Source: Phycisphaerae bacterium (GTDB lineage Bacteria; Planctomycetota; Phycisphaerae; Sedimentisphaerales; Anaerobacaceae). From it: 64,000 nucleotides of DNA. Shown here one piece after another: positions 26,489 through 36,419 of this stretch; the stretch's first letter is position 1, and the number at the start of each line of letters is the position of its first letter. Below the pieces are notes generated by a model. It saw nothing but the letters and a program-made list of their open reading frames with translations, did not search any database and was not told the DNA's origin. The stretch spans positions 1 to 64,000 of the forward strand of contig JAGOLX010000021.1 in assembly GCA_017993835.1 (NCBI GenBank). Direction: 5' to 3'. The translations under genes were made by a program, and so were the position numbers.

Positions 26489-27190
26489 TCAATGGTACCC
26501 GGCGCCGGGATAGAGGAGGTTCAAAGCCAGGCCGTGAGCGGGGCCGAGCAGACCGCCGATCACGTTCCACGCGATGACCAGGCCCACCATGCCCGCAGCG
26601 GGCTGGGCCATGAACTCCCGATAGCGAGCGGCTGCACGGTCGTCGAGAAACAACGTGAGGATCTCGCTGCCGTCGAGCGGGGGCAGCGGCAGCAGATTGA
26701 AGACCAACAGAATCAGGTTCAGCGAGAACAGAACGCTGATCACGACCGCGGCGCCGGCCATCGGGCCCGGGGACCGGGCGACGGTCACCTGAGTCCAGGC
26801 GGATTCCAGGGGCGCCATGAACAGGTCGAGGGCCACGCCGATCCGGATGAGTATCGCGGCCAGGAGAATCAACGCCAGGTTGGCGACCGGACCCGCCAGG
26901 GCCATCCAGGCCGCCTTCCTGCGGTTGCTGATCGCCCAGTAGGGATCGTACGGGGTGCTCGCCCAGCCGAGCATCCAGCCGCCGAACAGGAAGGACACGA
27001 TGGGAATGGCCACCATTCCGATAGGCGATCGCTGAATGTGCGGAACCGGGTCGAGCGTCGCCAGACCGGCGTCTCGCGCGGTGGGATCGCCCAGCGCCAG
27101 CGCGGCGAATCCATGGGCGGCCTCGTGACAAGTCGTCGAGATCACGAACACCGCGTACCAGACCAATCCGAGTCCCAGTTCGACCGGCAT
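26489..27190 (-). CDS. Site-2 protease family (M50) membrane metallopeptidase
   Basis: The product is 233 residues with about five or six membrane helices. The zinc motif HEAAH (22-26) lies in the first helix, and the second metal motif NLLPLPPLDG (165-174, Asp173) is late. This is the compact SpoIVFB/Rip-like form without PDZ or CBS domains, cutting substrates within the membrane. No substrate gene is evident nearby. ATG 27190 follows a modest AAGGG site. The 55-base gap to GH95 suggests co-transcription. Confidence 0.9.
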   Translation of the reverse strand: MPVELGLGLVWYAVFVISTTCHEAAHGFAALALGDPTARDAGLATLDPVPHIQRSPIGMVAIPIVSFLFGGWMLGWASTPYDPYWAISNRRKAAWMALAGPVANLALILLAAILIRIGVALDLFMAPLESAWTQVTVARSPGPMAGAAVVISVLFSLNLILLVFNLLPLPPLDGSEILTLFLDDRAAARYREFMAQPAAGMVGLVIAWNVIGGLLGPAHGLALNLLYPGAGYH

Positions 27191-32873: not shown

Positions 32874-32996
32874 CTTGCGTTTTCCGAAGGCGGGGAGTGT
32901 ACGACCTCGCTTTGACCGCAGATGCCCACAAGGCTATCCGTCTTGGCTGCAGCGGCGAAATGAGATGAGAAGAACGGTAAGAAGGAGAAATCCAGA

Positions 32997-35705
32997 ATGA
33001 AAGAGTCAGCGGTGGAAATGAATAGAAACAGGCCCAGGCCAGCGGCGGCGTCCGATGAATTTCGGGTCAATGCTGCAGGGTATCTGGAGCGCGGCTGGGT
33101 CATCGCGAACCACAAGCTCGTCTCGTTCCACGCCGCATTTATTTCGTCCGTGCTGAGCCTGCCCGTCAAGGAGCTGAGCGAAAAGGCCATCGCAGGGGCC
33201 AATCTGAAGCTCGAAGTGCTGAAGTTCATGTTCCTCAGCGTCGAGACCATCGTGTCGTTGGCCATTCTGTACTTGTCGTGGCATATCGCCATCGCGATTC
33301 ACGAGATGGGCCATTTCCTGACCGCCGCCAAGCTGACGGCTCTGAACAAGGACTCACAGGAGAAGGCGGACGCCGCCCTGAAGAGCGGTGGCAAATTCGG
33401 CTATTACGCCCAGATGCTCCTTCTGATTCCGTGGGGCAAGTTCTACGGCGTGAGGAAAGAGAACGGTAACTTCGCACCCGACGCGCCATACAACCTGGCC
33501 GTGTCGGCGGCCGCGCCGATCTGGAGCCAGTGGCTGGCCACGATCTGTTTGCCGATTGCCGCGTTCTTCATCGCAGTGGGATTGCTGGCAGGGCAGGAAT
33601 GGATGATCTACATCGGCCGGTTCTTCCTGGCACCGGGCGTGGTTGGCCTCCTGGACCGATTCCTGGCCGACCCCGGCAAGCTGAAGGAATTCCGCAACCG
33701 CGAGAAGGCCGCCGCGGAAGCCGCTGCCCGAGCCGCTGCGATCGCCGCCTCCGGCGAGGCATGGACCGCCCGCGTCGCCCAGGTCAAGAAGACCATGCTC
33801 ACCACCCGTATGCAGACCGTCACCCTCAAAGATGGCAGCCGTGTCGCCGCCCCCTGGCAGTTCCGTAACTGCGCCATGGGTGGCCGTCACACGGAGAAAG
33901 AGTACCCCGAGAGCAACATCAGCATGCAGGAGAGTATGTTCATGCCGCTCTCGCCGAAGACCTACGAAGACTCCCAGGAGATGACGGTCAAGTTGCAGTC
34001 CCGTCTGAAGGAGATCATCGAGTCCGCCCCAGGCGCGAAAGTCATGGGCGTCGGTCTCGAAGGCGGCATCGCCCCCTACATCGACAAAGAGCCCACGGAT
34101 CAGGTCCCCGAGCAGCGTATGTGGCGCTTCATGAAGCAGGCCATTCTGGACTGCGAGCTCGTGCCCGGCGTGGATGTCGCCATCGCGCTGGACCCTGCCT
34201 GCTCCGAGCTGGAGAACGCCTATCGCGAGGAACGCGGCGAGCCGGATTCCGTCGGCATGTACCGCTTCTGGCGTGACAAGGACAAGGTCGAGATGAGCCG
34301 CGACCAGATCCTTACTCTCTTCAAGAAGTCCATGGAAGACGGCATCCCGATCCTCTCCATCGAGGACGGCTTCGGCGAACGCGACCACCAGGGCTGGCAG
34401 AACATGATGAAGGAGCTTGGCGACAAGATCTTCATCATCGGCGACGACCTGGTCACCACGAAGGACTCGAACATCGAGAAGTGCGCCAAGAACGGCGAAA
34501 TCAACGCGTCCCTGATCAAAGCAAACCAGATCGGTACCGTGACGGAAACCGTGCTGGCCATGCTGACCTCGCTGGGCTACGGCGCCGAACTGGTCATCTC
34601 GCACCGCTCCAAGAGCCCGAACGATCCGTTCGAGGCGGAAATCGGAACCGCGATGAATGCTCTCGGCGTCAAGTGCGGCGGCGGCGCCAACACGGAGCGT
34701 CTCCAGAAGTACGGTCGCGTCATGGAGATTCTGGCTTTGGCCCGCTCTTCGCAACGCAGCATGACCGACAAAGAGCGCAAGGAGACCCAGGAAACCGTCA
34801 AAGAACTGGTGAAGACCCTGACCGGTCAGGACGTTGCGATCAAAGGCGACGCCGGCGACATCGACATCACCGGCCTGCTCATCAAGATGCTCGCGATCGA
34901 GGCCGTCAGCGGCACCGAAGAGGCGACCAACGCCGGCATTCCGTCGGCCGCTGCCTCCCTGTTCCTCGGTAAGAGCGGCATCATCCGCTTCAAGGGCTCG
35001 ACTCCTCTGGGCACCAGCGCCGGCGAGGACGAGGCCATTCACTACGTCGATAGCATCATCGAGGCCTCCGAGGCGACCAAGAAGTACCCCGATATGTTCA
35101 AGAATATCGGCGACGGCACCTTCCGCTTCAAGAAGGACGTCAAGGTCGCGGACGTCAAGGCCAAGAACGATGAGAAGCTCATGGCCCTCTGGAAGAAGTC
35201 CCGACGGTACGACGGCAAGGGTTGCATGGACGCGGTCAGTCACATCGAAGGCGTGCTCGCCAAGGCGTTCGTCGGCCGCAAGGTCGGCCAACTGGGCAGT
35301 CTGCTCGACGCGGACAAGGAACTGCTGGGTCTCGAACTGGGCGAGGCCATTCGCATGGGCCGGATCCCGCAGGATGCCCCAAGGGACAAGAAGATCCATG
35401 CCATGCAGCGAAAGAGCGTGCTCGGCATGAACGCCATCCTGTCCATGTCGCTGGCTCTGGGCCGCACGGTGGCCGCCGGACAGGGCAAGGAACTCTGGCA
35501 GCTCATCCGCGAGATGTCGGCCGACACGATGTCCAAGTTCGTGGCCGCCAACGCCAAGGGTGAGAAGAAGAGCGCCGCGGACCTCAAGAAGATGGACTAC
35601 GACCAGCTCCAGGCGCTGTATCAGAAGACAGCGACTGAGGCCATCAAGGAAGGCAAGACGCTCTACGAGCTGCTGCGGGCTCAACTGCCGGTCTATCCGG
35701 TATAA
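32997..35705 (+). CDS. M50-like membrane domain fused to a circularly permuted enolase
   Basis: The product is 902 residues. Residues about 30-230 form a multi-helix membrane domain with the metalloprotease motif HEMGH (102-106) and a late Asp220. Residues about 285-580 match the enolase C-terminal barrel: GGRH (His298), QE (Glu312), LEGG (Glu355), metal ligands Asp399, Glu456, Asp483, Lys508 in LIKANQIG, SHRS (His536), Lys559 in VKCGGGANTERLQKY. Only after this, at about 630-900, comes the enolase N-terminal lid domain: PLGTSAGEDEA (Ser674, the mobile loop), GKGCMDAVSHIEG, and KSVLGMNAILSMSLALGR. The protein ends LPVYPV, the point where a normal enolase passes from lid domain to barrel. So the order is swapped, with a linker at about 585-625. 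All catalytic residues appear kept. Start ATG 32997 follows AAGGAG. Confidence 0.88.
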   Translation: MKESAVEMNRNRPRPAAASDEFRVNAAGYLERGWVIANHKLVSFHAAFISSVLSLPVKELSEKAIAGANLKLEVLKFMFLSVETIVSLAILYLSWHIAIAIHEMGHFLTAAKLTALNKDSQEKADAALKSGGKFGYYAQMLLLIPWGKFYGVRKENGNFAPDAPYNLAVSAAAPIWSQWLATICLPIAAFFIAVGLLAGQEWMIYIGRFFLAPGVVGLLDRFLADPGKLKEFRNREKAAAEAAARAAAIAASGEAWTARVAQVKKTMLTTRMQTVTLKDGSRVAAPWQFRNCAMGGRHTEKEYPESNISMQESMFMPLSPKTYEDSQEMTVKLQSRLKEIIESAPGAKVMGVGLEGGIAPYIDKEPTDQVPEQRMWRFMKQAILDCELVPGVDVAIALDPACSELENAYREERGEPDSVGMYRFWRDKDKVEMSRDQILTLFKKSMEDGIPILSIEDGFGERDHQGWQNMMKELGDKIFIIGDDLVTTKDSNIEKCAKNGEINASLIKANQIGTVTETVLAMLTSLGYGAELVISHRSKSPNDPFEAEIGTAMNALGVKCGGGANTERLQKYGRVMEILALARSSQRSMTDKERKETQETVKELVKTLTGQDVAIKGDAGDIDITGLLIKMLAIEAVSGTEEATNAGIPSAAASLFLGKSGIIRFKGSTPLGTSAGEDEAIHYVDSIIEASEATKKYPDMFKNIGDGTFRFKKDVKVADVKAKNDEKLMALWKKSRRYDGKGCMDAVSHIEGVLAKAFVGRKVGQLGSLLDADKELLGLELGEAIRMGRIPQDAPRDKKIHAMQRKSVLGMNAILSMSLALGRTVAAGQGKELWQLIREMSADTMSKFVAANAKGEKKSAADLKKMDYDQLQALYQKTATEAIKEGKTLYELLRAQLPVYPV

Positions 35706-35939: not shown

Positions 35940-36419
35940 ATGCAACGGCACAGTATCCTTCGCTTCCTGGTCTTCGTGGTGTTCTTCAGCAGCGGGGCCG
36001 CAGCGCTCGGCGGTGCGGTCCTGTGCGACGATTTGATCCGGTATTGCCGCAATAGGGAGGTCCTCAGGGAAGCGGAGTCGGCCATCCGTCGGCTCGAATC
36101 TCTCAACGCGGAATACGACGTCCTCCTGGAACAACTGGAGAACAATCCCGAGCTGCTCAAGCGGATCGCTCCGGTGACGCTGGGCACGGAGCCCAACGAC
36201 CCGAACACAGCCTATCCCAAAGCCCGGGCTCGCGAACTCGCCCTGGCCCGCAAGGCGGTGATAGATCATGTCGGCGAGGAGCCCGCCGAGGCCGCCATCC
36301 CGACCTGGCTTCAGCGATGCAGCGATCCCCCCAAGCGGATCGTCCTGTTCATCAGCGGCGCCAGTCTCATCTTGATTTCCATGGTCTGCTTCACGTCGCC
36401 CGGCGACGACGAGAAATAG
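35940..36419 (+). CDS. Small membrane protein with a coiled-coil middle
   Basis: The product is 159 residues. A hydrophobic N-terminus (FLVFVVFFSSGAAALGGAVL, about 9-28), a helical stretch with heptad character (REVLREAESAIRRLESLNAE, about 38-58 and on to 75) and a C-terminal membrane helix (about 133-153). Both ends anchored with a coiled coil between recalls septum or envelope scaffold proteins, but I see no family signature. The ribosome binding site is weak (GGGGAC). It follows the enolase fusion by 234 bases, with a small hairpin (CTCTGAAG/CTTCAGAG) between. Confidence 0.6.
   Translation: MQRHSILRFLVFVVFFSSGAAALGGAVLCDDLIRYCRNREVLREAESAIRRLESLNAEYDVLLEQLENNPELLKRIAPVTLGTEPNDPNTAYPKARARELALARKAVIDHVGEEPAEAAIPTWLQRCSDPPKRIVLFISGASLILISMVCFTSPGDDEK

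Follow-up and report, generated by a model that had tools for sequence, protein, structure and literature searches.

A membrane-tethered enolase homologue with permuted domain order, from a conserved family widespread among bacterial phyla

Enolase is among the most conserved of the sugar-burning enzymes, and its architecture is among the most fixed in biology. To our knowledge, no natural enolase with permuted domains has been described, and a literature search, with most subscription papers and bioRxiv outside its reach, returned no report of one. The 902-amino-acid protein considered here is encoded in a 64,000-nucleotide stretch of DNA from a Phycisphaerae bacterium (the window), which lies on contig C80 of a genome assembled into 115 contigs with a total of 6.37 Mb. 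Like enolase (TIGR01060; PF03952 plus PF00113), it has a barrel and a lid with the corresponding folds and keeps every catalytic and metal-binding residue, but it carries the lid after the barrel, a membrane domain in front, and two insertions in the lid, and it is about 30 to 37% identical, no higher. Its points in common with site-2 protease and other M50 proteins (PF02163) are HExGH in its membrane helices, an AAxP/AAGP-type motif around the helix that follows, and a later Asp, but it scores below the Pfam cut-off, reads LLDRxLAD rather than LDG, and has the extra invariant residues His39, His45, and His96. Finally, pyruvate phosphate dikinase (PPDK; TIGR01828; PF01326, PF00391) has its ATP-grasp and phosphohistidine domains in common only with fused relatives of the window protein; in contrast to PPDK, these relatives have no recognised PEP/pyruvate-binding barrel, and the window protein itself lacks the whole module.

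A preliminary description made from the sequence alone had given the open reading frame, its coordinates, and its residue numbers correctly. The layout is as follows, in window coordinates.

32981..32995, plus strand: ribosome-binding site region (AAGGAG) ahead of the ATG at 32997, read from the sequence
32997..35705, plus strand: whole gene, an open reading frame of 902 amino acids comprising membrane domain, enolase barrel, enolase lid, and C-terminal helical extension
33075..33788, plus strand: N-terminal membrane domain, residues ~27-264, from the full-length model and a weak M50 match
33300..33314, plus strand: HEMGH motif, residues 102-106 (HExGH in 47/47 aligned relatives)
33831..34751, plus strand: enolase TIM barrel, residues 279-585, from Pfam and the fit to solved enolases
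34611..34625, plus strand: family signature KSPND, residues 539-543, directly after SHRS and invariant in 47 relatives
34752..34886, plus strand: barrel-lid linker, residues ~586-630, with model helices at 591-609 and 624-631
34887..35510, plus strand: enolase lid domain, residues 631-838, with the mobile-loop Ser674 (TPLGTSAGE), from profile, fold, and conservation
35511..35702, plus strand: C-terminal helical extension ending in LPVYPV, residues 839-902, helical in the model

The swapped order that the preliminary description had proposed, barrel first and lid second, is borne out by Pfam, by a lid profile, and by predicted folds. In the window protein Enolase_C matches residues 287-578 with 157.5 bits, and Enolase_N follows C-terminal to the barrel with 31.9 bits (E 1.7e-7), slightly below its 35-bit cut-off; in most scanned relatives Enolase_N lies above that cut-off (51.4 bits in L072, 49.4 in L079, 54.8 in L156, 45.4 in L150, and 44.9 in L192). 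A profile of 47 lids, searched against PDB sequences, matched enolases only among the matches listed (best E 2e-16), with three collinear segments, all of them inside chain residues 1-137. Modelled alone, the lid (631-838; pLDDT 89.9, pTM 0.87) superposes on enolase N-terminal domains with Z scores of 13.8-15.4, an rmsd of about 2 Å over about 135 residues, and about 30% identity, and enolases made up all 50 entries listed in the corresponding structure search, mostly aligned at residues ~1-137. The full-length model (pLDDT 87.8, pTM 0.84), whose own structure search was filled by matches to the barrel, places residues 279-585 on positions ~136-420 of solved enolases with a Z score of 33. Since the barrel thus corresponds to enolase residues ~136-420 and the lid to residues ~1-137, the arrangement is a true circular permutation. 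The NCBIfam equivalog for phosphopyruvate hydratase, TIGR01060, gives the window protein 191 bits and the relative in L072 246 bits against a cut-off of 300; this counts against an enolase, although permutation by itself is bound to lower the score. The case had been staked beforehand on the likeness of the C-terminal residues to the enolase lid, and both fold and alignment upheld it.

The break falls, as had been proposed, at the natural joint between lid and barrel: the structure alignment starts there, at model residue ~279 and enolase residue ~136. The accompanying suggestion that the C-terminal LPVYPV represents this joint is rejected, because the barrel has its own counterpart of the enolase LPVP, APWQFRN (285-291), and because the divergent proteins of family f16 (~815 amino acids) stop just past the lid, about 60 residues sooner, without LPVYPV. 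Likewise, the C-terminal extension is largely missing from divergent relatives, and the barrel-lid linker is mostly absent from family f16. The insertions in the lid of the window protein lie at residues ~688-735 and ~767-800.

The permuted gene is conserved and widespread. Each of the eight remaining genomes of the genus has it in full length, at 70-91% identity, and it also occurs in several further genera of the host's family. A scan of GTDB genomes, from which the best 80 of 155 relatives were kept, extended it to at least 80 genomes, spread over Planctomycetota and upwards of ten further phyla. With the group labels of metagenome-assembled genomes (MAGs) taken as given in the sequence records, these 80 comprise Planctomycetota, Verrucomicrobiota, WOR-1/Margulisbacteria, WOR-3/Stahlbacteria, Fermentibacteria, Omnitrophota, and Acidobacteria/Aminicenantes, as well as Dehalococcoidia, Desulfonatronum, Gemmatimonadales, Krumholzibacteria, Myxococcales, other Deltaproteobacteria, Gammaproteobacteria, and Elusimicrobia. 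A family search in other planctomycetes, as originally proposed, would have been too narrow in scope. The order barrel-then-lid is seen in 79 of the 80 relatives, the one exception being a frame-broken contig end, and in a phylogenetic tree the permuted proteins form a single clade relative to conventional enolases, with full support. That the gene is an artefact of fusion or assembly, or that its C-terminal part resembles the lid by chance, could be argued from the slightly low Enolase_N score of the window protein; we give this explanation practically no weight and regard it as already refuted, because the 79 relatives that share the architecture come from unrelated assemblies and because the lid matches enolases alone in both fold and sequence. 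In one single-contig genome (L016/L082; G025:C1) a run of N past residue ~610 masks the lid part of the gene.

All catalytic and metal-binding positions of enolase are retained. When 56 permuted enolases were aligned with 31 conventional ones after their domains had been brought into the same order, residues S674, H298, E312, E355, D399, E456, D483, K508, H536, and K559 of the permuted protein proved invariant in 56/56 permuted sequences, and the same ten positions are invariant in 31/31 conventional ones. This bears out the complete active-site set that had been noticed in the window protein; the yeast equivalents, numbered as in the preliminary description, are Ser39, His159, Glu168, Glu211, Asp246, Glu295, Asp320, Lys345, His373, and Lys396. 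If the mechanism of known enolases may be borrowed, Lys508 would take the C2 proton of 2-phosphoglycerate (2-PG), Glu355 would assist the departure of water, Asp399, Glu456, and Asp483 would hold the Mg2+ ions, and phosphoenolpyruvate (PEP) would be formed reversibly. For this, the C-terminal lid would fold back over the mouth of the barrel, so that the mobile loop with Ser674 reaches the active site.

The permuted family nevertheless differs from conventional enolases in its SHRSKSP loop and in several fixed residues. Where conventional enolases read SHRSGET, the permuted forms read SHRSKSPND, a mark of the clade, with K-S-P in 56/56 against G-E-T in 31/31. In addition, R16, E22, E370, R395, and R407 (numbering of the canonical enolase of L166), invariant in conventional enolases, are replaced. 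The dimer of Staphylococcus aureus enolase is built by beta1-beta3, alpha5, and alpha12 (PMC4667285), and the lid's opening strands contain the positions of R16 and E22. With R16, E22, and R407 replaced, the quaternary structure of the permuted family probably differs from the conventional homodimer. More generally, the changes in the phosphate-side loop and at the other fixed positions suggest that either the substrate or the oligomeric state may differ. One could therefore suppose that the permuted homologue has another phospho-acid as its substrate or serves a specialised pathway, while a conventional enolase, where present, runs glycolysis. Such a change of role has a precedent in the carboxy-phosphonoenolpyruvate synthase of phosphinothricin biosynthesis, and it would account for the altered diagnostic loop and the other fixed changes, but it is hard to reconcile with the retention of all ten catalytic and metal residues, and we consider it unlikely.

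The membrane tether put forward in the preliminary description is supported by predicted long helices at residues 34-54, 82-112, 167-198, and 201-224. Behind the last of these, residues 225-285 are strongly basic (12 K/R versus 6 D/E), which fits a barrel on the cytoplasmic side. In other words, the protein would be anchored in the inner membrane by its hydrophobic helices, and barrel and lid would face the cytoplasm. HExGH and D220 are invariant in 47/47 relatives and form the pattern typical of M50, an HExxH in a membrane helix with a later Asp; H39, H45, H96, and D225 are invariant as well. M50 was also the commonest Pfam match of the N-terminal domains (34 of 36), with a best E value of 1.3e-5 and none shown above the cut-off. 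PF02163 scores 13.7 bits in the window protein and 25.2 bits in the copy of G098 against a gathering score of 27.2, and hhalign gave 45-58% probability against planctomycete M50 proteins. LLDRxLAD or LLDFxLAD stands in place of the third M50 motif, LDG, and a sequence search of the domain against the PDB gave no meaningful match, an absence that proves nothing. The label M50-like is therefore apt as a resemblance but not as a Pfam assignment. Most likely, the His/Glu/Asp cluster binds metal in an M50-like manner, and the domain may still be active as a peptidase or as some other metalloenzyme of the membrane, the extra invariant histidines leaving room for another metal chemistry. The five invariant histidines (39, 45, 96, 102, and 106) together with D220 and D225 (window 33096-33656, residues 34-220) exceed what an M50 site needs.

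In close relatives the mean column identity is 81% for the membrane domain and 81% for the lid, so that the former is more than a tag or an anchor. This conservation, which extends to HExGH, D220, and three further histidines, could also speak for an enolase part that serves as a 2-PG/PEP-binding sensor or scaffold and controls the metalloprotease-like domain, as in a site-2-protease-type regulator that responds to a metabolite of glycolysis. Sensor domains, however, usually lose their catalytic residues, all of which are kept here, and a comparison of gene neighbourhoods yielded no functional lead and no substrate or regulatory gene pairing near the permuted gene. We consider such a sensor very improbable, and the earlier notion of a moonlighting form regulated by a site-2 protease is likewise not supported. 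A stand-alone M50 peptidase (45 bits) is encoded about 6 kb upstream of the enolase gene, on the minus strand of the window (26573-27154).

The assignment to glycolysis rests on the distribution of conventional enolases. Among 34 genomes with the permuted gene, a conventional enolase is absent from 22, full in 10, and present as fragments in 2. In a class-wide sample it is absent from 19/25 permuted-bearing genomes versus 20/372 others (Fisher p 7e-17), and among high-quality genomes only (completeness of 90% or more, contamination of 5% or less) from 9/12 versus 2/272 (p 4e-13); these tests ignore kinship, lineages not being independent, and the genomes are mostly incomplete MAGs. Families f1, f7, and f16, at the least, repeat this absence, and it includes two genomes that consist of a single contig, G367 and G385. 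In 13 genomes searched for pathway genes, namely, 12 without a conventional enolase and that of the window, phosphoglycerate kinase was found in 13/13, pyruvate kinase in 11/13, and iPGM in 8/13; the remainder may use another mutase. The retention of phosphoglycerate kinase and, mostly, of pyruvate kinase implies that the step between them is needed, and we infer that the permuted protein, as the only enolase in many such genomes, catalyses the enolase reaction in these Phycisphaerae lineages. Its sole presence there also argues against a different substrate, a reading for which the co-occurrence of a conventional enolase in about one third of the planctomycete genomes with the permuted gene could be cited.

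The genome of the window does contain a second enolase of conventional order, with its catalytic motifs intact in the sequence (G000:C9:73032-74297; L001), as revealed by the genome search that the preliminary description had recommended. Its proposal that the protein is the cell's glycolytic enzyme at the membrane is thus well founded for relatives without another enolase, whereas in the organism of the window, where the permuted protein shares the cell with a divergent second enolase, it is a candidate for that role. In the tree, the second enolases of f1 genomes form a clade apart from native Phycisphaerae enolases, a pattern that loss of the native gene would produce. The second enolases L001, L099, and L101-L106 of permuted-bearing genomes share a clade of their own. 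The permuted enolase seems to have replaced the normal enzyme in several lineages. Taking these data together, we think it quite probable that the product of the gene is a membrane-tethered enolase in circularly permuted form that performs the enolase step in many Phycisphaerae, where it would have displaced the normal enzyme. Recurrence in many phyla, retained catalytic residues, and apparent replacement suggest that an enzyme at the core of glycolysis is open to rewiring and to relocation to the membrane. Of practical concern, genomes with the permuted form alone could appear to lack enolase in annotation.

Replacement is not universal, given the second enolase of the window's genome and the situation in WOR-3/Stahlbacteria, where a conventional eno lies directly downstream of the permuted gene (L166:7636-8928, L160, L164, L169, and L174). 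This apparent operon, too, could be taken to favor a different substrate for the permuted form. The idea that the permutation arose by tandem duplication in WOR-3 was considered and rejected, as the adjacent conventional enolase falls outside the permuted clade.

In records labelled Acidobacteria/Aminicenantes, Myxococcales, Deltaproteobacteria, and Gammaproteobacteria and in one planctomycete, the permuted enolase is fused in frame to a C-terminal PPDK-like ATP-grasp and phosphohistidine module, giving chains of ~2030-2150 amino acids:

L079:2981-9424, minus strand: PPDK-like fusion protein; further such proteins in L182, L192, L186, L179, L189, and L200

The fused module gives a partial match to TIGR01828 (240 bits), and a PPDK-like gene adjoins the permuted gene in two WOR-1 genomes checked. 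Fusion or adjacency in other phyla points to PEP metabolism. The lack of a recognised PEP/pyruvate barrel in the fused chains might again be claimed for action on another phospho-acid. Returning to the permuted protein as an enolase, it is possible, though on balance doubtful, that membrane-embedded permuted enolases are the working glycolytic enolase of several lineages and elsewhere share a single polypeptide with a membrane metal site and a dikinase-like module of the ATP-grasp/phosphohistidine type, coupling 2-PG/PEP chemistry to phosphoryl transfer or another membrane reaction in a way undescribed before. With the PPDK-like fusions, coupling to the membrane at the PEP node can be tested directly. 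The idea that Phycisphaerae have a PPDK-like partner as a separate protein was rejected: when 31 genomes were searched with the fused dikinase region, all matches beyond its source genome fell in the range of ordinary PPDK.

Other partners occur in Omnitrophota. A 3214-amino-acid open reading frame (L159:751-10392) combines glutamate-dehydrogenase-like, permuted enolase, and UDP-glucose pyrophosphorylase-like parts, and another very long chain has a GPI-like end slightly below its cut-off. Fusions and neighbours of the family point to a link with central carbon metabolism around PEP. Just downstream of the gene in the window, a small open reading frame (35940-36419, plus strand) encodes one hydrophobic helix and a sequence of coiled-coil appearance without a Pfam match; it is kept in 13 neighbourhoods and, together with the upstream psd/pssA, is conserved among close relatives only.
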